A DNA stretch of 64,000 bases, taken from NCBI GenBank assembly GCA_026874595.1, contig CM049316.1, forward strand, positions 48,610,695-48,674,694, in the 5' to 3' direction. The DNA comes from Sipunculus nudus (taxonomy: Eukaryota > Annelida > Sipuncula > Golfingiida > Sipunculidae). Within the stretch, counting starts at the first letter, position 1; each line of letters starts with the position of its first letter. A program made the position numbers and the translations under genes. Below the pieces are notes generated by a model that was given only the letters and a program-made list of their open reading frames with translations, did not search any database and was not told the DNA's origin. This document shows, piece by piece, positions 20,214-60,516 of the stretch.

Positions 20214-20301
20214 ACACAATTTGACTGCTGTATTAGCCCTGTCCAGCTGACCACAGTCAACCTGAGCTGGCTGCTCACCTTATGGACATCCACAGTAAAA
20301 G
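20214..20301 (+). CDS. CENPL: CENP-L exon (FDC...NLSW segment)
   Basis: 88 nt between acceptor TTATTTCAG and donor G|GTAACA. Only one frame is open: TQFDCCISPVQLTTVNLSWL, then LTLWTSTVK and one spare base. It matches the vertebrate CENP-L stretch I remember (FDC-FSPL...FNLSW...MWT). CENP-L is a kinetochore protein of the constitutive centromere-associated network. It pairs with CENP-N to read CENP-A nucleosomes. The exon exits with one base, and the next exon supplies two, giving Val. The intron after it is almost wholly a 56-bp minisatellite. Identification rests on memory of the family plus four further exons in order; no search was run. Confidence 0.8.
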
Positions 20302-20313
20302 GTAACATTGTGT

Positions 20314-23300
20314 GTGTCCATCAGTGCTGTGTGAACATCTACATGACTGTCATGTCTGACTGATGTTAGTTGTCCATCTGTGCTGTGTGAACATCTACAG
20401 AACTGTCATGTCTGGCTGATGTTAGTTGTCCATCTGTGCTGTGTGAACATCTACAGAACTGTTATGTCTGACTGATGTTAGTTGTCCATCTGTGCTTTGT
20501 GAACATCTACATGACTGTCATGTCTGACTGATGTTAGTTGTCCATCTGTGCTGTGTGAACATCTACAGAACTGTCATGTCTGACTGATATCAGTTGTCCA
20601 TCTGTGCTGTGAGAACATCTACATGATTGTCAGGTCTGAATGATATCAGTTGTCCATCTGTGCTTTGTGAACATCTACATGATTGTCATGTCTGACTGAT
20701 ATCAGTTGTCCATCTGTGCTGTGTGAACATCTACATGACTGTCATGTCTGACTGATGTTAGTTGTCCATCTGTGCTGTGTGAACATCTACAGAACTGTCA
20801 TGTCTGACTGATATCAGTTGTTGCTCTGTGCTGTGTGAACATCTACATGACTGTCATGTCTGACTGATATTAGTTGTCCATCTGTGCTGTGTGAACATCT
20901 ACAGAACTGTCATGTCTGACTGATATCAGTTGTCCATCTGTGCTTTGTGAACATCTACATGAATGTCATGTCTGACTGATGTTGGTTGTCCATCTGTGCT
21001 GTGTGAACATCTACAGAACTGTCATGTCTGACTGATGTTAGTTGTCCATCTTGGCTGTCTGAACATCTACATTACTGTCATGCCTGACTGATGTTAGTTG
21101 TCCATCTATGCTGTATAAACATCTACATGAATATTATGTCTTTCTGATATTTGTTGTCCATCTGTTCTGTGTAATTATCCAAATGATTACCATGTCTGAC
21201 TGATGTTAGTTGTCCCTATGTGCTGTCTGAACATCTATATGACTGTCATGTCTGACTGATATTAGTTGTCCATCTGTGCTGTGTGAACATCTACATGATT
21301 GTCATGTCTGACTGATGTTGGTTGTTCATCTGTGCTGTGTAAACATCTACATGACTGTCATGTCTGACCGATGTGAGTTGTCCATCTGTTCTGTGTAAAC
21401 ATCTACATGACTGGCATGTCTGACCGATGTTAGTTGTCCATCTGTTCTGTGTAAACATCTACATGAATGTCATGTCTGACTGATGTTGGTTGTCCATCTG
21501 TGCTGTGTGAACATCTAAATGACTGTCATGTCTGACTGATATTAGTTGTCCATCTATGCTGTGTGAACATCTACAGAACTGCCATCTCTGACTGATATCA
21601 GTTGTCCATCTGTGCTGTGTGAACATCTACATGAATGTCATGTCTGACTGATGTTGGTTGTCCATCTGTGCTGTGTGAACATCTAAATGACTGTCATGTC
21701 TGACTGATATTAGTTGTCCATCTATGCTGTGTGAACATCTACAGAACTGCCATCTCTGACTGATATCAGTTGTCCATCTGTGCTGTGTGAACATCTACAT
21801 GAATGTCATGTCTGACTGATGTTGGTTGTCCATATGTGCTGTGTGAACATCTACATGACTGTCATGTCTGACTGATATTAGTTGTCCATCTGTTCTGTGT
21901 AAACATCTACATGATTGTCATGTCTGACCAATGTCAGTTGTCCATCTGTGCTGTATAAACATCTACATGACTGTCATGTCTGACTGATGTTATTTGTCCA
22001 TCTGTTCTGTGTAAACATCTACATGATTGTCATGTCTGACCAATGTTAGTTGTCCCTCTGTGCTGTCTGAAGATCTACATGATTTTCATGTGTGACTAAT
22101 GTTAGTTGTCTATTTGTTCTGTATAATTATCTACATGATTGCCATGTTTGACTGATGTTAGTTGTCCCTCTGTGCTGTGTGAACATCTAAATGATTGTCA
22201 TATTTGACTAATGTTAGTTGTCCATTTGTTCTGTATAATTATCTACATGATTTTCATGTGTGACTGATGTTAGTTGTCCATCTGTGCTGTGTGAACATCT
22301 ACAGAACTGTCATGTCTGACTGATGTTAGTTGTCCATCTGAGCTGTTTGGACATCTACAGAACTGTCATGTCTGACTGATATCAGTTGTCCATCTATGCT
22401 GTGTGAATATCTACATGATCGCATGTCTGACTGATATCAGTTGTCAATCTATGCTGTGTGAACATCTACATGACTGTCATGTCTGACTGATCTTAGTTGT
22501 CCATCTGTGCTGTGTGAACATCTACATGATTGTCATGGTTGACTGATATCAGTTATCCATCTGTGCTGAATAAACATCTGCATGATCGCATGTCTGACTG
22601 ATGTTAGATGTCCATCTGTTCTTAGTTAACATCTACATGACAGTCATGTCTGACTGATGTTAGTTGTCCATCTGTGCTGAATAAACATCTACATGATTTT
22701 CATGTCTGACTGATGTTAGTTGTCCATCTGTGCTGTGTGAACATCTACAGAACTGTCATGTCTGACTGATGTTAGTTGTCCATCTGTGCTGAATAAACAT
22801 CTACATGATTGTCATGTCTGACTGATGTTAGTTGTCCATCTGTTCTGTGTGAACATCTACAGAACTGTCATGTCTGACTGATGTTAGTTGTCCATCTGTG
22901 CTTAGAGCCCCGTTTTTTCCGTTTTAACGGAAAAACAGACGGAAAACGGAATTAGGGTTCGAAAACGGAATAAGGGTTCAAAAACGGAATTATATCAAAT
23001 ACACGGAATACGACGGAAAGTCGGATTTAGAGCCGATTTAAACTGCAAATTAAAAAATTCTCACCCAATATCTTATTAAAAAATTCTTTCAAACTGCGCA
23101 ATACCGCATGTCATAGCGTCTCAGAGGCGAAATAGCTTTGAATATAATATAACCATACTTGTTTCAAATGTTTGAAATGATAGACGGTAAAAAACAGACA
23201 CTACACAGCAGAGAACTGTCTTGCCGATTCAGTGAACACATGCGCTGGATTACTTATGTGTGGGCCTGATGAAGAACCATTTATGTGAAGGACCAGGTAT

Positions 23301-24179
23301 AATTTTAAATATACGTAAAGTAACTATGGCATCAATGTTAGCAGTAATTAAATTTAAAATATTTTAAACAGCTTATTGAACACGTAATACATTTAATCAT
23401 CTGGATTTAAAAGTTAACTCTTAAGAAGATGTAGCAATTTTATTACATAAAATATAAAGATAAAACGGAAAATTCCAGAATTTTGATTTTATTAAAACAA
23501 AAAATAATTTTTTATAAAACGGAAAAAACGGGGCTCTATGTGCTGTATGAACATCTAAATGATTTTCATGTCTGACTGATGTTAGTTGTCCATCTGTGCT
23601 GTGTGAATATCTACAGAACTGTCATGTCTGACTGATATCAGTTGTCCATCTGTGCTTTGTGAACATCTACATGACTGTCATGTCTGACTGATGTTGGTTG
23701 TCCATCTGTGCTGTGAGAACATCTACATGACTGTCATGTCTGACTGATGTTAGTTGTTCATCTGTGCTGTATGAACATCTACATGATTTTCATGTCTGAC
23801 TGATGTTAGTTGTCCATCTGTGCTGTATAAACATCTACATGACTGTCATGTCTGACTGATGTTAGTTGTCCATCTGTGCTGTATGAACATCTACAGAACT
23901 GTCATGTCTGACTGATGTTAGTTGTCCATCTGTGCTGTATGAACATCTACATGATTTTCATGTCTGACTGATGTTAGTTGTCCATCTGTGCTGTATGAAC
24001 ATCTACATGACTGTCATGTCTGACTGATGTTAGTTGTCCATCTGTGCTGTATGAACATCTACAGAACTGTCATGTCTGACTGATGTTAGTTGTCCATCTG
24101 TGTTGTATGAACATCTACATGATTTTCATGTCTGACTGATATTGGTTGTCCATCTGTGCTGTATAAACATCTACATGAC
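20314..24179 (+). repeat. 56-bp minisatellite filling a CENP-L intron, ~58 copies
   Basis: The unit is roughly 'catgtctgactgatgtta' + 'gttgtccatctgtgctgt' + 'gtgaacatctacagaactgt', spaced 56 bp (for example, catgtctgac at 20351 and 20407). It starts about 12 bases after the 5' splice site and stops about 12 bases before the 3' splice site, so the intron is essentially the array plus one MITE (22903-23538). Variants alternate GATGTTA/GATATCA and ATGACT/AGAACT, suggesting local block duplication. Confidence 0.95.
22903..23538. mobile_element. 636-bp MITE with 24-bp TIRs and 6-bp target duplication
   Basis: It begins TAGAGCCCCGTTTTTTCC and ends with its exact inverse; 24 bp pair perfectly. It is flanked by TGTGCT on both sides (22897-22902, 23539-23544), which belongs to the minisatellite unit. 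The interior has short ACGGAAT...AGGGTT subrepeats and no transposase frame. The TAGxG-type end suggests a hAT-like or other 6-bp-duplicating superfamily, which is not resolved. Confidence 0.88.
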
Positions 24180-24191
24180 TTTTTTTTCCAG

Positions 24192-24303
24192 TACCAAGTC
24201 GAAGATCATTTGAACTTGTGTACCAGGTACCAGATGAAGTGAAGGATCTTGATAAAATCACAGTTAATATGGAGGCTCAGGCTTGTAAAGGGATCTGGAC
24301 TAG
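24192..24303 (+). CDS. CENPL: CENP-L exon (PSRRSFELVYQVP segment)
   Basis: 112 nt between a T-rich acceptor (TTTTTTTTCCAG) and a strong donor AG|GTAAGA. Only the frame entering after two bases is open: PSRRSFELVYQVPDEVKDLD, KITVNMEAQACKGIWT, then AG. The two entry bases complete a codon with the last base of the 20214-20301 exon. In vertebrate CENP-L the corresponding segment runs between 'NLSW' and '..LWDSVH', and Trp of GIWT aligns with Trp of ALWDS. The 'KGIWTR' look-alike in RNA polymerase III subunit RPC6 was considered, but neighbouring exons do not fit RPC6. Confidence 0.8.
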
Positions 24304-25534: not shown

Positions 25535-25614
25535 GCAGTATTGTTAGCAGTCCTGTTCTTAGAAATCTTCTGTATTGTCAGCAGTCCTGTTCTGAGAAAT
25601 CTTCTGTATTATAA

Positions 25615-27960
25615 GGCCATCCTTAAAGTTCTGTGTTGGGGCTAACCCGGCCGGTCGTGATTTTTGGCTGCGGCTGGAATTTTTTTTTTTACATATCTGC
25701 AAATTAATATTTTTATATGATCTGCCGCAAGCACCTGGGCCCGTAAAAATCTGCCTTCATGTGCTAGAAAAGTAGTCCTTCTATTACATTTTTAGATGCA
25801 CTTAATTTCCATAATGAAAGGTATTACCGTACCCAACGTCGCCGATCGTTTAATTTGAGCCCTAACAATTAGTCAGGTTGTGCCTATATATATACACGTG
25901 GAACGATCGCTACACTCGTGCGCAAGAGTAGAAAAACTGCCGGGAAACCGGCCATCAAATTTCATTGTTCTGGCGAAACAGGCTGAAAAAATATATTGAG
26001 CAATTAGAAATGGTTCTTATTTGATTTCAAATAAAGCGGAAGCTTACCGCTGTCGCATTAACTGATTAAATGAAAGTTCTCTCGACATTCATACTGTCAA
26101 CTGACCAATGTTGGCATTTAAACCATGTGACACGTTGATTTGCATAAACACGTGCCTGGCCCACGCAAACGTTCTTGTGATTGGCGGAGCGGTCACGCGT
26201 CATAGCCAGAGAGCCAATAAGAGGTCCTTAGTAAAAGTTCACCACATATGACTTCATTCATCACTATTTTGGCGGGAAAATGTTCACTGACATCGTGTCG
26301 CTTACGCTGGTTATAATTTTTCAGCAACACTCACGGTGGCACCGTGAGTAGGCCTATATCAAGCAAATGAAGCGGGCCTATTTAATGGAATCTGCAACTG
26401 ACGATGTGTAATGCACAATCTCCACAAATCAGATGTTTGGTATTACAAGAATTGCGTGATTTCGTCAGTTCTGTGGAGATCATGACAGGGTTTTGTGAGG
26501 TGTCTGACGCATCGTTTCTACCGGCCACAGCTGATCAGAACAGGCATAACATATAAGCGACTGTCTTTTTTTTGGTTGTGTTTCTTTTTAACTGCCTTTG
26601 TAAATTTATTTCATTTTATTAATAGCTTTTATAATAAACAGATATTTCCTGACCGTACGGCCATTCTTGTTTAGACGTAGACGAGATAGAGATCAACATT
26701 GCTCGCTCAGTCATTAATTACAGAAAAATACTAGAATATCAGCAAAAGCTGACAAAAGCCCTCAGCCAAAAGAGCAGTATTTATGGGTGGTAACAGTAAC
26801 AAGTATTCATGTAATATTTGTTCTCACATGGATGTATATCTGTACATATGTCTTTTGTTCAAGTTGTGAATTGGAACTAGAGAGGTATGAACTTTGTAAT
26901 TCTGGCCCCAGTCTTTGTGAGTCATGCAGCACTTACGAGATCATCAAGGCCAATGACCATTCCATATTCGAAACCAATCCATCCAGTGGTTCATAGGAAT
27001 AAGCTCCTAAGTTTTTTTCTATTATAAGCTCTGTGACCTTGGGTCATCCATCTTGGAACTTGACCGAGATTTTGTTGATATGTATCAGCACCAAAGAAAT
27101 GAAATTTCTGTGTTGAATACTTTTGGAGATATCCTCTTCACATGGTAAATGTTAACACACGCCGGTTATTTTCTATAATTTGCTCTAAAACGTTGAGAAA
27201 TAAGTCAAGGTCACCCATCTTCGAACTTTACCAAGATTTTGTTTGTATATACATCAACACCGAAGAAATATAATTTCTTATCAGGGTACCGACATCCAAT
27301 ATATGGTTTCATCTTTCAAAAAGTACAGTTTTACATATATTTATATAAACATTTTATATATTCTACTACCTTATTAGGCATTGACTATTACTAAAGAGTT
27401 CATTTATTACCGTCCTTCTTAATTATACCTCTTCACTTGCAAAGGAAATCTCAAACTGCACTTATTCCTACAATTCTGGCACTCGCATACAACACAAAAT
27501 AAAATTGTCTGCAAATTCATGTGAGATCCAGAACAAGGCTTAAAGGCCTAATGCGAACCTGTGCAATGGGATATACATCAGTTATAATGCTTCCATGATA
27601 ACATGCTTGACCATTATTGGAAAAGTACTTCATAACTTTTCAAATACGTGAATGTTTGACATGTACATGTTTAAAGCATGTACTAAAACATTTTAAACCC
27701 AAGTACAGGATTTTAAGCCTGTAATAAAACACAAAATCTGTTCAGAGATACCTTGTTGTGCATGTTTAAATGGTATCGAGGCAAGGAATGAATGGAGTAT
27801 GGGTATGTAATTTGACATAAACCTCGCATATGCTAGTATCCGGTAAAAAAAGGTGTAGTAAACTCCAGATCCTCCTTTAAAAAAAATATTTTTTCCTCCC
27901 TACCTGATGACTTTTTTTGGACCAATGTTAGCCCCAACACAGAAATTTTTAAGGATGGCC
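25615..27960. mobile_element. PIF/Harbinger-like non-autonomous transposon, 2,346 bp
   Basis: Terminal inverted repeats of 32-34 bp start GGCCATCCTTAAA and end ...GTTGGGGCTAAC (25615-25646 and 27927-27960). TAA flanks both sides (25612-25614, 27961-27963), the TWA target typical of PIF/Harbinger. No transposase ORF is evident. A reverse-oriented family B fragment is nested inside (about 26735-27300), and a minus-strand family C-like tail occurs near 27540. It inserted into the 34-bp array. Confidence 0.85.
26735..27300 (-). mobile_element. Family B repeat fragment, reverse orientation
   Basis: The minus strand shows TTTTGGCTGAGGGCTTTTGT, the stem TCAGCTTTTGCTGA and ATTCTAG at 26735-26775, then upstream 'aaggtcacccatcttcgaac' modules as at 35079-36236. 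The 5' hairpin end is missing. Confidence 0.65.
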
Positions 27961-28718
27961 TAAGCATCTGTTCTGAGAAATCTTCTGTATTGTCAGCAGT
28001 CCTGTACTGAGAAATCTACTGTATTGTCAGCAGTCCTGTTCTGAGAAATCTTCTGTATTGTCAGCAGTCCTGTTCTGAGAAATCTTCTGTATTGTTAGCA
28101 GTCCTTTTCTTGGAAATCTTCTGTATTGTCAGCAGTCCTGTACTGAGAAATCTTCTGTATTGTAAGTAGTCCTGTACTGAGAAATCTTCTGTATTGTAAG
28201 CAGTCCTGTACTGAGAAATCTTCTGTATTGTTAGCAGTCCTTTTCTTGGAAATCTTCTGTATTGTCAGCAGTCCTGTACTGAGAAATCTTCTGTATTGTA
28301 AGCAGTCCTGTACTGAGAAATCTTCTGTATTGTCAGCAGTCGTGTTCTGAGAAATCTTCTGTATTGTCAGCAGTCCTGTTCTGAGAAATCTTATGTATTG
28401 TCAGCAGTCGTGTTCTGAGAAATCTTCTGTATTGTCAGCAGTCCTGTTCTGAGAAATCTTCTTTATTATAAGCAGTCCTGTTCTGAGAAATCTGTATTGT
28501 CAGCATTCCTGTTCTGAGAAATCTTCTGTATTGTAAGCAGTCCTGTACTGAGAAATCTTCTGTATTGTAAGTAGTGCTGATCTGAGAAATCTCTTTGTAT
28601 TGTCAGCAGACCCATATTGAGAAATATTCTGTATTGTCAGCAGTCCTGTACTGAGCAATCTTCTGTATTGTTAGCAGTCCTGTACTAAGCAATCTTCTGT
28701 ATTGTTAGCAGTTCTGTA

Positions 28719-34133: not shown

Positions 34134-34236
34134 TATACACACAGAAGAGGAAGATGAGGTGCACATCGATGAAGTGTCTGCTTTTATAAAGAGCCTGGAG
34201 CAACATTTCTTCACTTACTTCAACATACACATCATG
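34134..34236 (+). CDS. CENPL: CENP-L exon (IDEVSAFIKSLEQHF segment)
   Basis: 103 nt. The acceptor is taken as TTCTGTTTAAG (end 34133), not the CACACAG seven bases later, because only this choice keeps phase with the previous exon. The joined codon AGT then gives WTSIHTEEEDEVHIDEV, matching vertebrate WDSVH...EEVDLF in spacing. It continues SAFIKSLEQHFFTYFNIHIM, against the family's 'LYSHFHRHFKIHL'. The donor is ATG|GTCTGT, exiting in phase 0. The AAG acceptor is unusual, and alternative use of CACACAG would shift the frame. Confidence 0.75.
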
Positions 34237-45671: not shown

Positions 45672-45739
45672 TGGTGATTTCAATAGTTTATAAAATAATT
45701 CTAAAATGTTACTTGAAAGAAACCTTGAAAAAGCAGGAA

Positions 45740-46387
45740 TTGTATGATGAGGCACAGGTTCCACTTGTCATAGTCACTGATATTGTATGATGAGGCACAG
45801 GTTCCACTTGTCATAGTCACTGATATTGTATGATGAGGCACAGGTTCCACTTGTCATAGTCACTGATATTGTATGATGAGGCACAGGTTCCACTTGTCAT
45901 AGTCACTGATATTGTATGATGAGGCACAGGTTCCACTTGTCATAGTCACTGATATTGTATGATGAGGCACAGGTTCCACTCGTCATAGTCACTGATATTG
46001 TATGATGAGGCACAGGTTCTTCTCGTCATAGTCACTGATATTGTATGATGAGGCACAGGTTCCACTTGTCATAGTCACTGATATTGTATGATGAGGCACA
46101 GGTTCCACTTGTCATAGTCACTGATATTGTATGATGAGGCACAGGTTCCACTTGTCATAGTCACTGATATTGTATGATGAGGCACAGGTTCCACTTGTCA
46201 TAGTCACTGATATTGTATGATGAGGCACAGGTTCCACTTGTCATAGTCACTGATATTGTATGATGAGGCATAGGTTCCACTTGTCATAGTCACTGATATT
46301 GTATGATGAGGCACAGGTTCCACTTGTCATAGTCACTGATATTGTATGATGAGGCACAGGTTCCACTTGTCATAGTCACTGATATTG
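45740..46387 (+). repeat. 43-bp minisatellite, ~15 copies
   Basis: Unit 'tgatattgtatgatgaggca' + 'caggttccacttgtcatagtcac', period 43 (tattgtatga at 45781 and 45824). Copies are nearly identical, with a few changes at 45980-46025, so the array is recently homogenised. It ends about 300 bp before the CENP-L exon at 46695. Confidence 0.96.
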
Positions 46388-46694: not shown

Positions 46695-46757
46695 GCTATG
46701 CCCTTGATCAGGGTTGGGACGCCAGTAGCAATGGCAGGCATAGACGGTAAAATTAAG
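46695..46757 (+). CDS. CENPL: CENP-L exon (RVGTPVAMAGIDGKIK segment)
   Basis: 63 nt, exactly 21 codons, phase 0 at both ends: AMPLIRVGTPVAMAGIDGKI plus K. The acceptor is TTAATTTCAG and the donor AAG|GTAAGT, both strong. The other two frames contain stops. It corresponds to 'LVRVSTSVA...TDGKIKI' near the C-terminus of vertebrate CENP-L, the most recognisable match in the gene. A small symmetrical exon like this could be skipped without changing frame. Confidence 0.85.
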
Positions 46758-47103
46758 GTAAGTACCAGGTTCATTACTTGTTAGTGTGTTACACGTCAGA
46801 TTTGTAACTCACCTGATGGGAGTCACCATGGTGCAGTCTCTGTCTCTTACCGGTACTTAACTTTTGTTGTTCAGGACTTGTGCAGTCACAATTTGCATAC
46901 TTAGAACATTACATTATAACACATCATAACACACTTCATCAGTGAAACTGATGCTTCAGATAAGATCTCTCAGATTAGTGGTGACACCTACAATCAGTAT
47001 GACTCCTTTCCCTTGGAGGAGACATATTGTTTGGTCTGTTGTCATACTGAGGAGTCATGTGTCATTTTTTGTGAACATGATAACTTTTGAACCACACATT
47101 TTT
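46758..47103. other. Start of the last CENP-L intron
   Basis: Includes an open but unconvincing frame (about 46920-47090) that resembles a repeat module ('gaggagacatattgtttgg'). Confidence 0.4.
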
Positions 47104-47637
47104 AGCTCAGCTGACTATAAGTAATCAGGAGCTATAGTCGTGGTCCATTGTCCGTGGTCCGTCTGTCTGTCCGTCCGTCTGTCTGTAGATGTGGCACGTT
47201 TTGAAACCTTTAGACCTAGGAATCAAAAATTCAGCATAATGTTAGATGTCCCCAAGATCTCCTACCAAGCCGAAAACTGGGTCTTTGTGACTTCGTTCCT
47301 TTGAGAAATTAAGGAAAAACCTCAATTTTTTATTAAAATCCTATTTTCACACTTCAGGACTGCCTAATATCAAAACCACTCATCTGTTTTTCCTCATATT
47401 TACCATAAATATTCCTCTATATATAGTTCCTATGAACATGCAAGAAATTAAGTCTGTAAAGTATAAATTCTTTAAGTTATGGGCCCAAACATAATGGACT
47501 TTGTAAAAAATCAGGAAAAATAATAACTCACTTAACATGAAAAATTTTGAAACTAGAGTATTTTCTCAAGTATATAACTATGTTTAATATAGATTCAATT
47601 GTTTACCGAAAATTAGATCTGAATTTTGTAAATTTTT

Positions 47638-49584
47638 AGCTCAGCTGACTATAAGTCATCTGAGCTATAGTCGTGGTCCATTGTCCGTCGTCCGTCCGTC
47701 TGTCCGTCCGTCCGTCCGTCGATGTGGCACGTTTTGAAACCGTAAGACCTAGGAATCCAAAATTCGGCATAATGTTAGATGTCCCCAAGATCTCCTACCA
47801 CGCCGAAAACTGGGTCTTTTCGACTTCGTTCCTTTGAGAAATTAAGGAAAAACCTCAATTTTTTATTAAAAACCTATTTTCACACTTCAGGACTGCCTAA
47901 TATCAAAACCACTCATCTGTTTTTCCTCATATTTACCATAAATATTCCTCTATATAGTTCCTATGTACATTCAAGAAATTATGTCTGTAAAGTATAAATT
48001 CTTTAAGTTATGGGCCCAAACATAATGGACTTTGTAAAAAATCAGGAAAGATATTTGATCACTTAACACAAAACATGTTAAAGCTATGGACCTTTTTTCC
48101 AGTAATATAACTTTAATTAATCAAAATTAAATTGTATACCCAAAATTAGATGAAAATCTTTTAAATTTTTTAAAATATTAATAAAAATAAAAAATTGGTA
48201 CCTTAAATTTTGCCCAACTTTGACCATGGCACGTTTGTTTCCTGTGAGCACTGTTGATATAATTTTCATATCATGCACACATAAGGATTTCAGCTTTTAA
48301 GTTTAGAAAGCTGAAAGAAATTGGCCAAAAATTGTAGCTTTTATAAATGTTTTTATGAGACCCTGTCAGACTTTGGCTCCCTCCAGCCCCTCTTGAGTCA
48401 CCTGTATGTTGACCTTGTTGAACTTTCAGCAAATTATGCATGCTTGAGGCGAGGCATACAGGGGAATCCAGGCAGCTTATGGCCAGCCACAGTTGATCCA
48501 GGTGTCCAACCCAACTCATCTAGTAGTTTTAACCAACTACATAACAATAAACAATAAATTAATAAACTTTTATTGGTTTTTAATAAAAACATAAAGAAAA
48601 ATAGAAAAGGAATTTGTTAGTTTATAATAACAGGAAATTACCTTGCAGTTACTGATGATATAAGAATCTTGTATCGATGGATAGAATGTCACGTATTCCA
48701 AATAACACCATGCAGTCACCTATGGTATTTTTCAGTTCAATTTTAATGATAAAGAAGTAAATCATATCATTCATTACTAATCAATAGGGATCATATGATG
48801 GAAATTAATGATAGACAAAGATGCAGTTGATAATATTAATCTAGATTCCTACTGTGTCTAGTGTGTACATTGATGTGAAATTAGTCCAAAATGAATTTAT
48901 TACAGTTATTTTTTAATATAAATAAAAGCCATAAAACCAGGTACTTTTGATCATTATTTAAATGTGTGAATTTTGTATATTCTGGATTCTCAACATCATT
49001 GTTTGGTGAAAACTGAATAAATACCAGTCATGGTGCGAATACTTTGTAATTGTATTTAAATACGAATATGATTATGTACTCCATTATAAAGTTTCTTGCA
49101 TAAAGAATGGGAATTCAGGTAAAAATGAAAGTATATGAATACCAGTGCAAATACTTTCAAAATGTATTCATGAATGCATTCATGAATATATTCTTTAATA
49201 TTATTTTAATAATCATTTCAGTTATATTTCATTTAAAAAAATCATATGATTCTCTTATTATTTAAAAAAAAAATAATATTTGGGAAAATATTTGTAATTT
49301 TTTTTAATTAATAGTTAAACCCTTATATTATATATTCTGCTTATAAGTTATATGGCCAAGTCAAAATCTGTGTGACAATAGCACTCCATTTGTTAATAAA
49401 ATAAATGAAATCAATCCTCTTCCCTGTCTCCAAAGGTACTATTAAAATCAAACATAAGCTAAACAACAACAACTCATAATACAGCTTATATTTATTACCA
49501 CACAAAACCAGCATGTGCCTCATTTCTAAATAATATTTTTTTATCATATATAACAGCTGAGCGTCGTGACCCATAGGTCCCTTG
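47638..49584 (+). mobile_element. Family A repeat, copy 7 (inner)
   Basis: It starts AGCTCAGCTGAC after TTTTT and ends CCCTTG before TTT, inside copy 6. Its body matches copy 3 (13422-19158) closely and shows the LTR element's empty site near 49436-49446. Because host sequence is continuous on both sides, the element ends are known to within a few T. Confidence 0.85.
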
Positions 49585-50633
49585 TTTAAGTTATTAGCAT
49601 AAAAAAAAATCAGTACCTTAAATTTTGCCCAACTTTGACCATTGCACGTTTCTTTCCTGTAAGCACCATTGATTTAATTTTCACAGCATGTAAACATTAA
49701 TATTTACTTTGTCTAAATCTGAAATTTGAAAATAAAAGCTTGAAAATTAAGCTAGTTATTGATTTTTTTTTCTGTAGTCACTTGCTTTGATTACAGATGC
49801 AGGGTCCCACTCCAGGTCAGTGGAAGTCAGCTATGCCAGGGTTTCTGATTTGTTACAGTCACTGGGGGAGATCCCCTTCTGTGACAGGTGTACAGTTATT
49901 CTCATATCATCACCCCCCCCCCCCCCCCCCTGCAAACCCAACCCACCAAGTGTTATGCACTAATTGTTATTGTTTTCACTGTATCTCCTTAATTGTAATG
50001 CTGTTTCCACTCCGATATGCAAAAACTTTCCTTGAAAAAATAATTCAAGGTGTAATCAAGAAGATGCAATGTTGTGTAATGTAGCATTTTTAAAGAAATC
50101 AATTTTCTTTAAAATGATTTTAACAAATGTAATTGAACCCATCAGTATGCTTAAATTATTATAAAATATGAAGCACATTATGGATAAATAAAGACACAAT
50201 TAAAAATTGTGAAATCTAAATCAAGTATTATTTTTAGATATTTATTGTTTTGCAGATTTAAAAGATATATTTTTGTGGTAAAAAATAAATAAACATTTGT
50301 ATGCATGATGTGGTGTTATCTGACAAGATTGAGATTTATGATGATGCAATTGAGAATTATGAATCAACTTTTATATTCAGATATATATGTTAAATTGGAA
50401 ATGTATAGAAATATAAACTTAAATTAGAAAATAATTGATGTGATAAAAAAATGAGGATTTAATACAAACATTTGTTCATTATTTTCCTGCCTCAGCAGAA
50501 TTTGAGATCAGGCTTTGTTTGCCCTGTTTTATGTTGTTTATTAGCTCTATTTCAACTGTATACATTTCATAAAAAAAATACATATATATTTAATAATATA
50601 TATTATACAAAAAAATAGATTCAATTGAACAAA

Positions 50634-50775
50634 TGTGTAAACTACTGAAATGTCAACAGTTAATCGAAAAACCAACTAATGATCATGGTAATAGTACAAA
50701 TCATTTGTTCACAAACTGCTCACCTGCTTTAGTTTCAACATAAGAAAACACATGGTCAGGTCACAAAATATTTTT
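50634..50775 (+). pseudogene. AP-endonuclease relic in family A copy 6
   Basis: Translation shows MCKLLKCQQLIEKPTNDHGN, a decayed LFTNC, then ENTWSGHKIFF, with a stop between. The SDH motif has become SGH. It lies at the same position relative to the tail as the relic in copy 1. Confidence 0.6.
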
Positions 50776-50931
50776 TGCACGATTTCTTGCTCATCAATAC
50801 AAACCAATCATATAAACCAACCATGGCCTTTATTACCTCTTCCTCTTACACTTTATCTCCATTAGATATTATTTTAGATTTTTACCTTCAAGGTTAACGT
50901 CAGCTGAGCACAGTGACCCATAGGTCCCTTG

Positions 50932-52240
50932 TTTTTCATGAAGTTTGACATTTCTATTGATTCTAGCAATATCTCAGATGAGTTTTAAAAACAAGTGACC
51001 TTGTCCTTCATCTTTAAGGTTGAATAAGTTAGAATAAAAAATATTGTGAAGTCTATAACTTTTTAAGTAATGCATAATTTTTCCTCAAATTTAATAAACA
51101 ATTCATGTCAACCAAGTTTTGGATGATTATGAAACCTTGTGACCTTGACCTGGTACAAGGTCAAATCAGCAGAACTATTGCTCATTGTTTCTTTGTTTCC
51201 TTCATAATGAGATAACTGTGGAAGCACTGCATATTCTTACCACAAATTTGATGCACAAGTTGTTTCAATCAAGTTCTCAAACAGGTTCAAAAGCTCTTGA
51301 CCTTGACCTTCATCTTCAAGGTTAAATCTTCAGAAATCTAGGATTTTTGTGAACCCCATAACTTTTGAAGAATTTGATGTATAGCTTTTTTTCCCCTCAG
51401 ATTTGATATACAATTGTTTCCATATGTACCTTAGCTTGTGACCTTGACCTTAATCTTCAAGTTCAAGTCTGCAGAAATGCAATATTTTTAAATATTAAAA
51501 TAAAATAGTTTTGCAAGTAGGAGCCCATGGGTAGACATCTGCATGTTTTAGCAAGAAAAATCAATCTATTTTACTTATATACCTTGGTCAGTATGCAAAA
51601 TTTGAACATAAATTTACAAACATGTTCTTTAGAAATTGTATTCTTCTCTTGTACATGCTGTAATTACCAGTCAGCACTGGATTTATTCTGCACATGTGAC
51701 CAACAGCTTTTCTTTGATATCAGAAGATCAGAGGTCAAGATCACATCTGAAGTTTATCTCAATATTGCTTTCAGATGATAAAATTCTTGTTGTGACTGTT
51801 AGGGTGCTTTTCCATGTGCGCGGCAGAAACTGACGCGCGTCAAACGCATGCGTTAGCCGCGCGGCCAGTCCTTTTCCATGTGAGCGTTTTGTATGCGTTT
51901 GTCGCGCGGCAATCGCATGCCTTCCTGACACAACTGAACGGACTTAAACACACGAGTACGGGGAAACCCCCAAATGTGACGTCATTAAGGCGGAATTCCC
52001 ATGCGTTTGCCGCGCGGCAAACGCAGAAATCCAGCACTGCTGGATTCCAAAACTGACGCGTGCGTTTGCCGCGCGGCAATCGCATACATTGAAATAGCAC
52101 ATGACTTTTAAACTGGTTGGATTTTCACCGCGCGGCAGCCGCGCGGCAAACGCTTGCAAAACGCATACATGGAAAAGCACCCTTAACCTATAACATCATG
52201 CCCGTCAGCTGAGTGTCATGACCTATGGGTCATTTGTTAA
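50932..52240 (+). mobile_element. HINE-like repeat with A-type tail (head not recognised)
   Basis: Modules with 'gtgaccttgaccttcatcttcaagg' recur (about 50996, 51140, 51298, 51440). The end is the A-type tail GTCAGCTGAGTGTCATGACC (52205-52238). A Harbinger-like MITE interrupts it just before the tail. Confidence 0.5.
51802..52182. mobile_element. CpG-rich PIF/Harbinger-like MITE, 381 bp
   Basis: Inverted ends GGGTGCTTTTCCATG...CATGGAAAAGCACCC with TTA on both sides (51799-51801, 52183-52185). The interior repeats a CpG-rich palindromic block, GCGTTTGCCGCGCGGCAAACGC-like, four to five times. Base composition differs sharply from the surrounding AT-rich DNA. No coding. Confidence 0.9.
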
Positions 52241-52270
52241 TTTTATTTTCAGTCAGTGATACAATGTTGT

Positions 52271-54094
52271 ATCCGCAGACAAAGTCAGGATATTATGGTT
52301 TAGGCAAGGTTGCGTCCAGCCACCTCCTCAGCAATTTCTTTCAGGCAAGATAACTTGAAAAATATTTCACAGATCTTTACAAAACTCGTCATGTGCATAG
52401 ATATGGGTGAGAGGATGAACCCTTTTAGGAGAGTGACCTTGACCTAGAATAGGTCCACTTTGGGAGAAAATCACAATTCTTAAATATCTCAAGAAATCTT
52501 GCATGGATTGATCCAAAAATCAACTTGACCAAAGATCTAGGACAGTGTTGTCAGGTACCGGAAACTGGTGGCGCCACCTGTTATCCTTTTTCTTGTTTTC
52601 ATGCTGTTTAATACCCCATTAGTTGCTACTTGACAGTATGGACGGATTTCTTTCATATTATGCATATACATAGATTTGGGTTATGGGATGATGTATATTT
52701 AAATTGGGGTCATGACCTTTACTTTGAAAGTGGCCTTGACCTTGAATATTGCCATATATGGTGAAAATCACACAAAATCATAAACATCTCAATAAGGGAT
52801 AAATGGATTGGTCCAAAAATCAAATTGACCGAAGATCTTGGATAGCTTTGTCTTCTGTTGAAATCAGATAGGGCCACCTTCTGTCCTTATCTTGTTTTCA
52901 CACCTTTTAATACCCCTTATTACAGTACCTTATATCAACAGATCACGTATGCGTGATGAAAATAAATTTTATCAAGGAGATAAAAAAAAAATCAGATTCT
53001 GTAACACTAGGCAGCGTGAAATGTCTAGGGGAATGAATAAAGAAGTCAGTGTTTTTTTGTTAACAAATAACTATAATTTATTCTTAAAACAACCCTAACA
53101 TTACAATACACTAAATCAATACAATTACACAGTATAACAGCAGTATAACAACAAATCAATACAATCACACAGTAAAATAAACAAAGTGCACAGTACCTGG
53201 TTACCACCACTGTCATAGCGATAAGTCCTTTAAAATGTATAAGCTGGATGAAAAGTTCACACAAATTCTCTCGGAGAATAACAGTCCAACGTAAAGCTCT
53301 TGTAACAATCCAGAAATAAAAACTGAAGACCAAATAAGATTCTTCACAAAATCCAGAAGAAAATCTGAAAAAAATCTATAATTGCTGCACTTATAGGAAT
53401 AGGTCCCACAAACTGACATACAAGCTTCTGTTTCCGCTGGAATATTCTCTCACCTCTCTCTGGGCTCTTAAACACAGCCTTCTATTTATAACTTTTCACC
53501 TCCAGGTGAGAACCTTCCATTGCTCGAACATTCTAAAGAATCTAACACAGTACACACGTTCAAAGAACATACCAGAACAAAGAATGCTGTGTATCTAGGG
53601 TTCAACCAATGCGGATTAAACCGAACCTGCAACATCCGGCTGGGCAAGGCCACTACAACATGAGCTACGCGTGGCACACAAACAAAATGCCAACAACAAA
53701 TGGAACATCCGTGTGCACAATAAAATAATCATCTGTAAGACCGCTGCACACAATGAAAGGGCACCTGTAACACCCTTCATTGCCACTTAGCAGTACTGTG
53801 AGCATTATAAGTCTAAAACTAATGGACAAATTTCTTTCATATCGATGCATATACATAGATATAGGTTACGGGATGAGGTATATTTAAATTTGGATCATGA
53901 CCTCTCCTATGAGTGGCCTTGACCTTGAATATTCCCATATTAGGTGAAAAATATTGTTTCTCAAGTTGATAGATATAAGAAACCATGGTTGCTTGCCAAG
54001 TGTTAGTATATGCTGCTGAAGATTGGGGCCTATTCTTAAGGGGGGGAATTATTATCTGGGGATATAATGGCACGTGCAGTGCCAAGAAATTCTA
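52271..54094 (+). mobile_element. Family E repeat, copy 2, split by a solo LTR
   Basis: Head ATCCGCAGACAAAGTCAGG and end TCTGGGGATATAATGG with stem GGCAC-GTGCA-GTGCC and AAGAAATTCTAA. 'cttttaatacccc' at 52905-52916 continues as 'ttcattgccacttagcagtactgtgagc' at 53776. This matches the unbroken family E copy 1 at 37383. Confidence 0.65.
52919..53772 (-). mobile_element. Solo LTR, 854 bp
   Basis: Read on the minus strand it starts TGTTACAGGTGCCC and ends GGTACTGTAAT. CCCTT flanks both sides (52914-52918, 53773-53777) as a 5-bp target duplication. TATAAATAG lies at 53482-53490 and AATAAA at 53077-53082, in the right order for promoter and polyadenylation. No internal region or second LTR is present, so this is a recombination product. 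It is unrelated in sequence to the LTR at 15853. Confidence 0.8.
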
Positions 54095-55029
54095 ATTTTC
54101 AGTCTGTTATCATGAATCTCAAAAATGCTGCAGCTGTAATTATGACTTTCCACTTTTTGGCTGAGTTACGGAAGCTGAACTTAGCCAGTTTGCTGTATCT
54201 TCCTATATGAGTTATAAACCTGCAAAATGTTTTAAGACTGATGCCACTGAAGCCATTTTATTTAATATTTTACAAGAATAATCCCCACAATAATTCTTAT
54301 AATAATTTTCTTTAATGGCACCACATTAATGATTTTTGGCTGAATTATGGAGATTGAATTGAGTCATTTTACCATATATGAAGCAGTTACATCTAGCCTG
54401 GCACCAGTTTATTAGCATCTATTACATCATGCCACTAAACATTCTCAGGTTGAATAGTGTGGCAGACTGTCAACTATTTCAGATTTGGCAACAGGCCAAA
54501 GGTCAGCCTGGATCTATTTATAGCTTTGGCAGACTGGCAACTGTATCTAATGAGGCAACAGTTCAAGAGTTCACTCAGTGCAGCCAGGTGCAGGTCAAGA
54601 GTTCAATCAATGCAGCCAGGTACAGGTCAAGAGTTCACTCAGTCTAGCCAGATGCAGGTCAAGAGTCCACTCAAAGCCAGCAATTAGTCACAGTTCACTC
54701 GGGGCAACTGCCTTTCTCACCTAAGCCTGGTCAGCCCAGTGCATCAAACTCAAGAGAAATTTGATGTATTGGCCTGATATTTTGACCTGTCTATGCATCT
54801 TTGATGGTGTTCTCGTTCACAAGACAGGTGTCGCCACCTACAATGACTTTGCAGAGTGTATGTGCCTGCTTATTCCTCCAGAGGAATTTGATATATCAGC
54901 CTGAAATCGGGCATATTTATACATATCATAAGGCTTTGTTATATACAAGACTGGTGGCGCTACCTACAAAAATTTTTGCACAGTGTATGTCCCCGCTTAT
55001 CTCTCAGGAGGGGATATCAGCATGAAATT
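54095..55029 (+). mobile_element. Mixed family C/D fragments with a 30-bp tandem repeat
   Basis: 54110-54380 resembles family C modules. 54553-54672 has about four ~30-bp units ('gcagccaggtgcaggtcaag' + 'agttcactca'). 54780-55029 resembles family D ('acaggtgtcgccacctacaa'). Confidence 0.45.
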
Positions 55030-55448
55030 TAGCGCCAGATCGGCCCTCTGACATTATGGCCAGATCACTGGCTTGCCAGAGTGCCTGGACATCTAGCTCT
55101 GAGGATCGCATTATAAGGCCCCATAAGGATGCAAATATTTTCATCATTTTTGACAACGCCTCATTCCTTACAAGTATCTTGTCACATCAAATAAACCCGC
55201 AAGACCTTTTAATAAGTTTCTTATCTCTCCAACGACACCTGCCATGTGTGTGAAATATTTCGTCATAACCCCAATATAATCGTATTTTGTTCTGCATGTA
55301 TGGGAGATTTCTGCCTGCAGTCTGCCTGCTGACTGTATGCGGAGATACGGTTATAAAGCGAGGCGTGGGACTAGCAGGGCGGTTCTAAATTTGGCTTGTG
55401 TCACGACTCAGTAGGGGGTCCTAATTGAGTCGTGTTTGTCACGGCTAC
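55030..55448 (-). mobile_element. MITE F, copy 2, inverted
   Basis: Reverse complement of the 43680-44095 element across its full length, with scattered differences. Flanks CATGAAATT/CCTGAAATT suggest an 8-9-bp duplication that has diverged. Confidence 0.75.
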
Positions 55449-56040
55449 CTGAAATTGGGCACATGTATATATCTCTGATATCTTCGTCCAATACAAAACA
55501 TGTAGGCCTACTTGAAAAGTAATGGCCCAACATTGAAGCATAATACCTGGTGTATAAATCACTGCACAGGTTCGCATTAGGCCTGTAGGCCTTTTTTTTA
55601 CCTACAAGATCTAGGAATTAGAAAAATACATGCTTAATGCCCAGATTTGGTGTCTTGCAGGTTTTCTTCCCGTCTTCTGCATGCCACAGTTACGTATAAA
55701 AGTCAGATTATTCTTTAACACTCCCAGTACACTTTGATACCTGTGACAGGGTGTTGAGCACCCCCCCCCCCCCCCTTTCCCTTTTCTATGATCCTGTATC
55801 AATCATAGAGTATGTATTATCAGGTAACCCAGAAATGGCTGCAATATTCAGCACAAAATGTAACTAGGGCACAAATTATAACAATAGCAGCTAGGATGTT
55901 AAATTATTATATACAGTCATGTTCTAATAAAATCTCTTTGTGGACCACAAATAAGGTCACTGTAGTCTTTATTTTATGTGCTGTGGCTGTGAGTAATGTG
56001 TCAAAGTCAGCTGAGCACCATTGCCCATGGGCCACTTGTA
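55449..56040 (+). mobile_element. Family D, C and A-subfamily 2 fragments
   Basis: A family C-type tail (GCACAGGTTCGC, then AGGCCTGTAGGCCT and a T-run) lies at 55565-55600. A poly-C run is at 55760-55775. An A-type tail GTCAGCTGAGCACCATTGCC ends near 56040. Confidence 0.45.
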
Positions 56041-58540
56041 AAATTGATGGAAAGGAATACATGAAAAACAATTATTAAGTCATTAGAGTTGTTCAGGTAC
56101 TTGGTTGTGTTCTGTCATCATGCATATTATCATATAAGTGAAAGAGCATTTATTGTGCATATAATATATCAGCAGTCATGTAAAGTTCAAGGGAAGTCAG
56201 TCCAACTATTTTATCAAAACTGGCAAAGACATACATTGGAGCTCTATTCATCCCAACAGGTCAGGGGATAAGGTTTTTGTTTGAATAAACAAATGTTTAG
56301 ATAAATGGTCAAGTGTCAAATATGATCACAGCATCATTGTTATTTGCCTGCTTTTGGTATAAAACCTAGGAGTAATACTCAATGGACTTCATTGGTGAAT
56401 CTTCAATTCAAAAGTTAATTACAAAAGATCTGAATGGAATAACCTGTAATAAATACTGATTTCTTGACATATTGTGGCAATAAAATCATGCACTCAAGCA
56501 ACTTAGTCACTTTATTTAGATTATTTTAACATTGAATTACATTGAATGAGTGGGCTTCCACCATGACATGACAAACATTATCCTTAGTGCTGCCTCCTGT
56601 GTGCTGACAAACAAACTACACTGGAGTTAATCATGAGACACTTGCTAAACTTTCCATTCTGTTTCTTTATTAGTAATGGTAACAAACATGGAGCAGATCG
56701 TGCACCAGGGCATAATGATCAGAAGTTAGTTCACATAGTTACAGATATACAGTTACCATGCAGACTGATGAATGTTTGCGCACTTGCAGCTCCTGTTCAA
56801 CAACTTTACTTTCATAAAAATTTAGGATGAACACTCATAAATTCTGTTCTATTGTATCATTTTTGGACAAATGGTTTATCCTACATATGGTGTTTTGATG
56901 AATAGCCCTGACTACTCCACTCAGTAGGCAGTATATTGGGCTGGTAAGCCTAATTTGAGTCATGATACAAGGCATATCAAGGAATGCATCGCAGTGGTCT
57001 TTCATCATTTTGCATTCATATTGTGGTGAACATCCCATAATCTTAACATTTTATTAACATTTTAACACTACGAATGATAGGATGACACAAAAACGCATGT
57101 AGACTCGCACCCCAAACTGAAACTGTCTCTATGGTAACATGCATGTCATTTCCTGTATCACCTACAAGTTGTCTGTGTCCAGCAACCCATAGGAGCAATG
57201 CTTGTATTTATATAGTCTCAACCAAGACTAATGGACAGGTTGATTGATTCAAGGTTACATGGCAAGTATTCATGCAGTCAGAAATTCAACAAATATGCGG
57301 AGGGATTTGCCAATATGCTGAGTAAAAATTTAACTTTTTTTCGCTCATGTTAGGTGTTGTTTGAAAGCATACTAAATAAGCTAATGATTGGTTTGGTTTA
57401 TGTCAAGTGTCAGCATGCTTGTAGGCCATGAGGCTTACACAGATGTATTACCAGGTTAGGTCATGTAAAATGGAAGCCCCATAGGATTTATAAGATAAAG
57501 TCGGGGAAACATAGTTAACACTATTTTATAACGTTGTGTTTATCTTTATCATTAGTTCAGTGTTGTTATGTAGATCTGTTTGTTCATGTATCAAGTGATG
57601 GAATAAGTAGACAACGGTTTGTTATGATTGGCTGACAGAAGATTCTGGAGGTCCAGATGGTTCTGGAAGGCTTAGTTGGTAATTTCCATGTGGACAAGTT
57701 TGATAACATTCGCTACAAGAACTTTCGTTGTAGTGCTGATATATGTATGTTGCTGCCTAAAAAAAAAATCAGTCGAGTTAGTCAGAGTAAAAACGTTCTG
57801 CAGAGGATGTTTTGTGAGACGTAAATTTGCGCTAGGCGGTCTGTTGGTCAAGTTCCCCGTAAGGACGATTTTTTATTCCCAGGAGACAAGGAAGGGGTTA
57901 GAATTGAGTGGACTATTTGTGAAGTTAGAGCCAGTTAACGGCTCACAAAATCCACAGAACTGTTAAAGGATTGTATTGTGAGATTGAAGCCAGTCTATGA
58001 CAGCCTTGGCCAATTGTTGGACATTGCTAGGATAAACCTGTGTTTTGCTTACCCCTAAACAGTTTGATCATTTTGGACTTTTGGGTAAAAGATCCTCTGA
58101 AATATATGTCCACTGTGTGTGTGGTGTTACAGAGGCTTTGTCAGAAATAGTAAAAATATTTGCATCCTCATAAAGCCTTAAATAAGTTCCTTGCTGAAGG
58201 ATATCATGGCAATCTGACAGCATATAGGCTGTTTGGAGACTCACAAATGTCAGAGGCTGAAATGGCGCTATCTGATAAACAGCACTCCACTGTATTTGTT
58301 AAATCTCAATATAGCTGCCACAGTAGCCAGGGTAAAATTGGAAACTGTTCACAAAAGAAGTAAAATAATGCTTAGGTTAGTCATGCCAAATCTGCTGGAA
58401 ATCTGTAAGAATTCTCTAAAGGGGTTTCAATTGAAATAAATGATCAAATTCCAAAAGGTTTCCTGTATTAATGGACGTATCTTGAATTAACAGTGTTGTC
58501 ATGTGGGATGTTTCACAGGAGAGCTTTTAGTAACTAAAAG
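56041..58540. other. Unassigned intron sequence
   Basis: 2.5 kb without a supported gene. Short frames exist (for example 57676-57966) but lack splice context or recognisable motifs. About 58133-58275 is a degraded piece of MITE F. Confidence 0.4.
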
Positions 58541-60444
58541 GCTGTAGTGTTACTGTTTATTGACAGCTTTATCATCATTTTAGACATTGTATGAGGCTGT
58601 AGTGTTACTGTTTATTGACAGCTTTATCATCATTTCAGACATTCTTTTAGGATGTAGTGTTACTGTAGATAGCTTTATCATCATTTCAGACATTCTATTA
58701 GGCTGTAGTGTTACTGTTTATTGACAGCTTTATCATCATTTTAGACATTGTATGAGGCTGTAGTATTACTGTTTATTGACAGCTTTATCATCATTTCAGA
58801 CATTCTATTAGGATGTAGTGTTACTGAAGATAGCTTTATCATCATTTCAGACATTCTATTAGGCTGTAGTGTTACTGTTTATTGACAGCTTTATCATCAT
58901 TTTAGACATTGTATGAGGCTGTAGTGTTACTGTTTATTGACAGCTTTATCATCATTTCAGACATTCTATTAGGATGTAGTGTTACTGTAGATAGCTTTAT
59001 CATCATTTCAGACATTCTATTAGGCTGTAGTGTTACTGTTTATTGACAGCTTTATCATCATTTTAGACATTGTATGAGGCTGTAGTGTTACTGTTTATTG
59101 ACAGCTTTATCATCATTTCAGACATTCTATTAGGATGTAGTGTTACTGTAGAAAGCTTTATCATCATTTCAGACATTCTATTAGGCTGTAGTGTTACTGT
59201 TTATTGACAGCTTTATCATCATTTTAGACATTGTATGAGGCTGTAGTGTTACTGTTTATTGACAGCTTTATCATCATTTCAGACATTCTATTAGGATGTA
59301 GTGTTACTGTAGATAGCTTTATCATCATTTCAGACATTCTATTAGGCTGTAGTGTTACTGTTTATTGACAGCTTTATCATCATTTTAGACATTGTATGAG
59401 GCTGTAGTGTTACTGTTTATTGACAGCTTTATCATCATTTCAGACATTCTATTAGGATGTAGTGTTACTGTAGATAGCTTTATCATCATTTCAGACATTC
59501 TATGAGGCTGTAGTGTTACTGTTTATTGACAGCTTTATCATCATTTCAGACATTCTTTTAGGATGTAGTGTTACTGTAGATAGCTTTATCATCATTTCAG
59601 ACATTGTATGAGGCTGTAGTGTTACTGTTTATTGACAGCTTTATCATCATTTCAGACATTCTATTAGGATGTAGTGTTACTGTAGTTAGCTTTATCATCG
59701 TTTCAGACATTCTATTAGGCTGTAGTGTTACTGTTTATTGACAGCTTTATCATCATTTCAGACATTCTATTAGGCTGTAGTGTTACTGTAGATAGCTTTA
59801 TCATCATTTCAGACATTCTATTAGGCTGTAGTGTTACTGTTTATTGACAGCTTTATCATCATTTCAGACATTCTATTAGGCTGTAGTGTTACTGTAGATA
59901 GCTTTATCATCATTTCAGATATTCTATTAGGCTGTAGTGTTACTGTTTATTGACAGCTTTATCATCATTTCAGACATTCTATTAGGCTGTAGTGTTACTG
60001 TAGATAGCTTTATCATCATTTCAGACATTCTATTAGGCTGTAGTGTTACTGTAGATAGCTTTATCATCATTTCAGACATTCTATTAGGCTGTAGTGTTAC
60101 TGTTTATTGACAGCTTTATCATCATTTCAGACATTCTATTAGGCTGTAGTGTTACTGTAGATAGCTTTATCATCATTTCAGACATTCTATTAGGATGTAG
60201 TGTTACTGTAGATAGCTTTATCATCATTTCAGACATTCTATTAGGCTGTAGTGTTACTGTTTATTGACAGCTTTATTATCATTTCAGACATTCTATTAGG
60301 CTGTAGTGTTACTGTAGATAGCTTTATCATCATTTCAGACATTCTATTAGGCTGTAGTGTTACTGTAGATAGCTTTATCATCATTTCAGACATTCTATTA
60401 GGCTGTAGTGTTACTGTTTATTGACAGCTTTATCATCATTTCAG
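58541..60444 (+). repeat. 51/55-bp minisatellite of a 3' splice site, ~36 copies
   Basis: Units alternate between a long form (TACTGTTTATTGACAG) and a short form (TACTGTAGATAG). Each ends CTTTATCATCATTTCAG followed by ACATTCTATTAGG. The final unit's CTTTATCATCATTTCAG is the acceptor of the CENP-L terminal exon (60445). In the left half a three-unit, ~160-bp higher-order pattern recurs. Long units are 55 bp and short ones 51 bp. Confidence 0.95.
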
Positions 60445-60516
60445 ATATTTGACGAGGACCAAGTGATAGCTGTTCTGCTACACCTATCACAGATGGCCAT
60501 GGAGAAACCTGGATAG
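60445..60516 (+). CDS. CENPL: CENP-L terminal exon
   Basis: 24 codons from the acceptor CATCATTTCAG to a TAG at 60514-60516: IFDEDQVIAVLLHLSQMAME, then KPG. The previous exon exits in phase 0 with ...DGKIK, so the joined C-terminus reads DGKIKIFDEDQ. Vertebrate CENP-L has DGKIKI followed by a short helix (LIGVLAYLTELA) and ends there. The other two frames close at once. The exon starts right at the edge of an array that repeats its own splice acceptor. Confidence 0.85.
   Translation: MFDEDQVIAVLLHLSQMAMEKPG

Follow-up and report, generated by a model that had tools for sequence, protein, structure and literature searches.

The window, the whole stretch of DNA analysed (64,000 nucleotides of Sipunculus nudus contig CM049316.1), carries exons of a gene encoding the kinetochore protein CENP-L on its plus strand. 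The last intron of this gene is closed by a tandem array of short units, the final copy of which is the acceptor of the terminal coding exon. The features of the gene and of the array, by window position, are:

20214-20301, plus strand: upstream CENP-L exon, corresponding to human residues ~202-231 (tblastn, E = 7e-5)
20302-24191, plus strand: CENP-L intron consisting almost end to end of a 56-bp minisatellite, 20315-24180 (TRF and exon edges)
24192-24303, plus strand: probable CENP-L exon, corresponding to human residues ~231-268 (E = 34, where chance matches are frequent; placed by order, splice sites and open frame)
34145-34236, plus strand: CENP-L exon, about human residues 270-300 (tblastn, E = 0.063)
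46695-46757, plus strand: penultimate CENP-L exon, AMPLIRVGTPVAMAGIDGKIK (donor AAG/GTAAGT, phase 0; PDB match of the joined peptide)
46758-60444, plus strand: last CENP-L intron, 13,687 bp (donor and acceptor positions)
58539-60444, plus strand: tandem array of 51- and 55-bp units (TRF, which gives 58539-60449, and the unit list)
58567-60389, plus strand: the 35 decoy acceptors, each comprising motif and AG (AG of the first ends at 58583, of the last at 60389)
60428-60444, plus strand: real terminal acceptor, CTTTATCATCATTTCAG, forming the final array copy (motif match and ungapped CENP-L alignment over the junction)
60445-60516, plus strand: terminal coding exon, IFDEDQVIAVLLHLSQMAMEKPG followed by a stop, the CENP-L C-terminal segment (PDB match and frame)

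The identity of the gene follows from its last two exons. Joining 46695-46757 and 60445-60516 in phase 0 gives a 44-residue peptide (AMPLIRVGTPVAMAGIDGKIK followed by IFDEDQVIAVLLHLSQMAMEKPG) for which the three distinct CENP-L sequences of the PDB rank top among seven listed matches (E = 0.0017-0.0018), with gapless alignment over the junction to CENP-L residues 303-340 in two of these sequences, the human one among them, and to residues 307-344 in the third. This match supports the preliminary description, which had named the gene CENP-L and the last array copy its terminal acceptor. In Pfam, the CENP-L model was the sole match to the joined tail at 12.4 bits, below the cut-off, and plus-strand translations of 31500-60522 in three frames gave nothing at E ≤ 1, two of the frames giving nothing at E ≤ 10. 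The upstream exons were found by tblastn with a human CENP-L query sequence; for human residues 1-197, neither the window nor the 39.7 kb preceding it gave a convincing match. The phases of the exons ending at 24303 and starting at 34145 do not fit, so a small CENP-L exon between them was probably missed. The donor after 34236 is atypical (GTCTGT). A genome search with the 199-bp spliced tail found this locus only, and no haplotig or retrocopy showing the junction.

The array comprises 35.9 copies at a period of 55 (TRF), built from units of either 51 or 55 bp that fall into 14 distinct types among 35 units. Its 5′ half is organized as a 161-bp higher-order repeat (55-55-51), while its 3′ half consists of 51- and 55-bp units mixed. 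The six 161-bp blocks are identical at 158-161 of 161 positions and the longest exact repeat within the array reaches 321 bp, suggesting that turnover of the array was probably recent. Scanning the window for the 17-mer acceptor motif with up to two mismatches, and taking the expectation from shuffled sequence, yielded 37 matches where 0.06 were expected. All but one of these lie inside the array, where 35 decoys precede the real acceptor, itself the last copy. Exact matches number 28 (the real site plus 27 decoys), while six copies carry TTTTAG and two another single change. The number of decoys, put at about 35 beforehand, is therefore correct, and their proposed identity to the real acceptor in every unit holds at the level of the 17-mer for 27 of the 35 and fails for the other eight. 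The remaining match, with two mismatches, lies at 57544-57560, about 1 kb upstream of the array, and has no convincing longer similarity to the array unit. A search of the window for diverged unit copies outside the array gave best plus-strand scores within the range of shuffled units (five per comparison); on the minus strand the best scores, 50.5 and 48.0, lie near the 56-bp array and exceed their own five shuffles, which reach 44.0 and 44.5, but are provisionally taken as chance. Searches of the window with Rfam at gathering thresholds and for tRNAs returned nothing.

In the 1.43-Gb assembly the exact 17-mer occurs at 28 places, all of them in the CENP-L array, with none for a backward-pattern control, and a 123-bp pair of units identifies one candidate region genome-wide. 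The genome search skips very common words and is hence not exhaustive; within these limits, the matches of both queries to the CENP-L locus alone indicate that the array is locus-specific. A dispersed satellite, or a transposon with internal tandem repeats, is rejected as the source of the array on its presence at a single locus in this search.

On the intron side, decoys and the real acceptor are nearly equal. From position -20 to -1, 12 of the 35 decoys are identical to the real site and the remainder differ by one to three bases; when the comparison is extended to +3, 13 agree with it at 22 of the 23 positions, and all 35 at 20 or more. A branch-point-like word, TTGAC, lies upstream of 19 decoys as well as of the real site. 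A generic acceptor matrix scores 29 of the 35 decoys at or above the real acceptor, whose own score is a modest 1.14, and the decoys are therefore not crippled. By the same matrix another AG of the 55-bp unit consensus outscores the acceptor (2.65 vs 1.14), most likely that of TTGACAG, 17 bases upstream of the acceptor and present upstream of the real site too; the generic matrix thus fails to explain the choice of AG even within a unit. The sequences following the AG set the sites apart. Decoys continue with ACATTCTATTAGG in 24 cases and ACATTGTATGAGG in seven, the other four being close, and they have TTAGG (27 of 35) or TGAGG (the other eight) downstream; TTAGG is missing after the real AG, which alone is followed by GAGGA and GACGA. 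TTAGG is putatively silencer-like, and GAGGA and GACGA are putatively enhancer-like. Predicted RNA accessibility gives no support to a structure that hides the decoys, the real site being the less accessible one (0.074 vs a decoy mean of 0.282). The array holds no AGGT in 1,906 bp and no donor-like GTRAG, so by these words only alternative acceptors are on offer; cassette exons arising from the array are ruled out by the lack of a donor-like GTRAG.

Read in the phase of the exon (phase 0), 27 of the 35 decoys reach a stop after three codons (TFY, TFF or IFY), and the other eight do so after 38-46 codons; all 35 frames stop before the true exon. The reading ACA TTC TAT TAG, previously ascribed to each decoy, is thus right in the immediate stop for 27 and wrong for the eight with longer frames. 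The associated proposal that mis-splicing would truncate CENP-L is upheld, since splicing to any decoy would delete the conserved C-terminal segment that aligns to human CENP-L; this segment may be the last helix, as was proposed. That position or exon signals set the choice of acceptor, as was also proposed, is likely for the closest decoys, given the 12 whose 20 final intron bases equal those of the real site.

The spliceosome would mostly use the last copy of the array, because the true exon (GACGAGGAC, purine-rich) adjoins this copy alone; a decoy would lead into TTAGG or TGAGG and no exon. With such a preference the decoys would be largely neutral, perhaps slowing removal of the last intron. 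A partial parallel is available in one in vitro study, which reports that splicing with a duplicated beta-globin 3′ splice site was very inefficient and went solely to the distal copy, and which notes earlier work where the length of the proximal exon affected 3′ splice-site choice (PMC5389562). By analogy with this one system, use of the last copy in the CENP-L array would fit. The array amounts to a duplicated-splice-site experiment set up by nature with 35 competitors. A dozen of these share the real site's last 20 intron bases and differ from it mainly in post-AG sequence and position; junction use here would reveal the share of the exon and of position in 3′ splice-site choice.

If decoys were used to a substantial extent, CENP-L would be made as a spread of isoforms lacking the last 23 residues, most of them ending in TFY. 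Their equality or near-equality with the real site on the intron side and the early stop in all 35 frames fit such a spread, and because the decoy-isoform stops fall in the terminal exon, junction-dependent decay would not remove the transcripts. We regard substantial decoy use as improbable, however, as the segment lost aligns to human CENP-L and as lancelet mirages, the minisatellites compared below, are reported not to disturb splicing (PMC3087553). A regulatory role would have many 3′ splice sites loaded with U2AF and U2 slow the removal of the intron, copy number tuning CENP-L output. The same in vitro study lends it some plausibility, reporting that a pair of 3′ splice sites can be bound simultaneously and that splicing is then inhibited (PMC5389562). 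Arrays also occur in other introns of the gene, however, and 7 of 18 random 10-kb stretches contain them; this distribution speaks for mutation over design and leaves regulation very improbable. Equally slight is the probability of its extended form, in which the 36-acceptor array would set both rate and product of the last CENP-L splice: multiple U2AF/U2 occupancy would slow the intron, the exon-bearing last copy would usually win, and copy number would shift the fraction without the C-terminal segment. Were that so, CENP-L would be a kinetochore protein controlled by repeat length and varying between individuals.

The array is best explained, with moderate confidence, as a mirage-like minisatellite that was born at the CENP-L locus and took in the 3′ splice site of the last intron, its last copy being the one that works; confidence is higher for the anatomy of the array than for this whole account. 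Capture of the CENP-L splice site would explain the presence of an acceptor in each unit. The array would have started when some 50 bp spanning the intron-exon junction were duplicated, and unequal exchange would then have enlarged it. Seeding across the junction, as the preliminary description had it, is suggested by the unit's likeness to the exon over 21-30 bases after the AG, seen in 9 of 13 and 13 of 21 agreeing positions at best and in an anchored gapped alignment (P ~0.003-0.005 against places after YAG, post hoc), and by the private nature of the array. Against it, identity is only ~60%, the comparison was made post hoc, and an unanchored comparison of 35 exon bases gives P = 0.56; the proposal stands as suggestive. 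The coincidence of the array end with the acceptor has P = 0.00017 under uniform placement in the last intron, a test chosen after the coincidence was seen; the gene's other three arrays give 0.96, 0.37 and 0.052, and all four combined 0.0014. The unanchored exon comparison, when run on the eight remaining exon edges of CENP-L, returned low P values at the acceptor at 20214 (0.0) and the donor at 20301 (0.01). Since the former has no adjoining array, the shuffle null of this test is weak and the test was not used as support.

An alternative that differs only in where the array came from, with the same splicing, is that it arose within the intron out of sequence that has no relation to the junction, the old acceptor was deleted or decayed, and a chance AG in the last unit became the splice site. 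By chance, ~0.25 AGs of the real acceptor's generic strength are expected per 53 bp, so an array could hold an acceptor without junction seeding; minisatellites are common in the genome sample (nine arrays in the 180 kb of the 18 stretches, counted at a period of 20-200 and at least four copies), and the unit's exon similarity is modest. This alternative requires two events, however, and leaves the in-register likeness of unit and exon after the AG to be accounted for; we consider it possible but doubtful. An assembly artefact or a non-functional CENP-L copy can scarcely be credited. Arrays can be mis-assembled in copy number, but several exons stand in order with their splice sites, the spliced-tail search recovered a single locus, and the unit variants are orderly.

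The mirage-like account places the array with a known kind, the mirage minisatellites of lancelets, in which tandem repeats include a splice boundary so that many units hold usable signals, the real site lies at the edge of the cluster, and units are homogenized within it. Many mirage units contain AG/GT signals, and splicing is nonetheless reported to be regular (PMC3087553, PMC3902484). As in mirages, the CENP-L repeat covers the real splice site, the AG of its last unit (60444) being the acceptor, and it is locus-specific rather than dispersed, as we read that property, with one region genome-wide. For exon sequence in each unit, a further mark of a mirage, the best agreement is the post hoc 9 of 13 and 13 of 21 positions given above, beside P = 0.56 in the unanchored comparison. 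Length instability between haplotypes is another mirage property; the spliced-tail search recovered no second haplotype, and the 321-bp exact repeat suggests recent turnover. The CENP-L array, with 36 copies of 51/55 bp, is longer in copies than BflGb6, which has six and three units of 150-160 bp in two haplotypes, and its unit length lies within the 10-72 bp of Adh3 mirage units; the exon part of its unit is ~60% like the exon, whereas BflGb6 units are 81-100% alike among themselves. The CENP-L array suggests that minisatellites at splice boundaries are not confined to lancelets, the group in which they were described. Among the titles listed by full-text searches of one open-licence library, none described a mollusc case. 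The human IFI6 (6-16/G1P3) minisatellite reportedly holds multiple splice donor sites, by the title of a 1995 Nucleic Acids Res study (23:1854), and would thus likewise be a minisatellite supplying many splice sites, with donors in place of the acceptors found here. Tandem repeats delimited by repeated splice sites are also described for polyubiquitin UBC, where AGGT sites bordering the coding monomers serve as both donor and acceptor (PMC10809524); the CENP-L array, free of AGGT, is not a dual-specific array of this type. Minisatellites that lie at exon-intron boundaries and can alter splicing are also known from human segmental duplications, as internal tandem repeats; unlike the CENP-L array, they average four 30-bp units, and novel introns formed in recent paralogs (PMC2812944).

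The CENP-L locus suggests that one gene can carry several intronic arrays, and two of them each occupy a single place in the genome. The second of these is a 43-bp array at 45739-46387 with 15 copies and 98% matches; its unit is coding-like (LYDEAQVPLVIVTDI), running into GWTVARKPDHHIEFDLLK and a stop, and this piece (45.7-46.4 kb) had no Pfam or PDB match. The 56-bp array begins 13 bp past the donor of its intron, stops 11 bp short of the acceptor and is interrupted at 22903-23538 by an element of 0.6 kb that has inverted ends (TAGAGCCCCGTTTTTTCC ... GGAAAAAACGGGGCTCTA). A 34-bp array at 25538-28717 is likewise split by an element with inverted ends, of ~2.35 kb (~25.61-27.96 kb). The frequency of minisatellites in the genome and in CENP-L introns suggests that the general process behind the arrays is probably mutational. 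A 58-bp tandem array upstream of the window takes up three 10-kb stretches entirely and 2.8 kb within a fourth (at least 32.8 kb), ending ~6.9 kb before the window, and a 52-bp tandem array fills one whole random 10-kb stretch.
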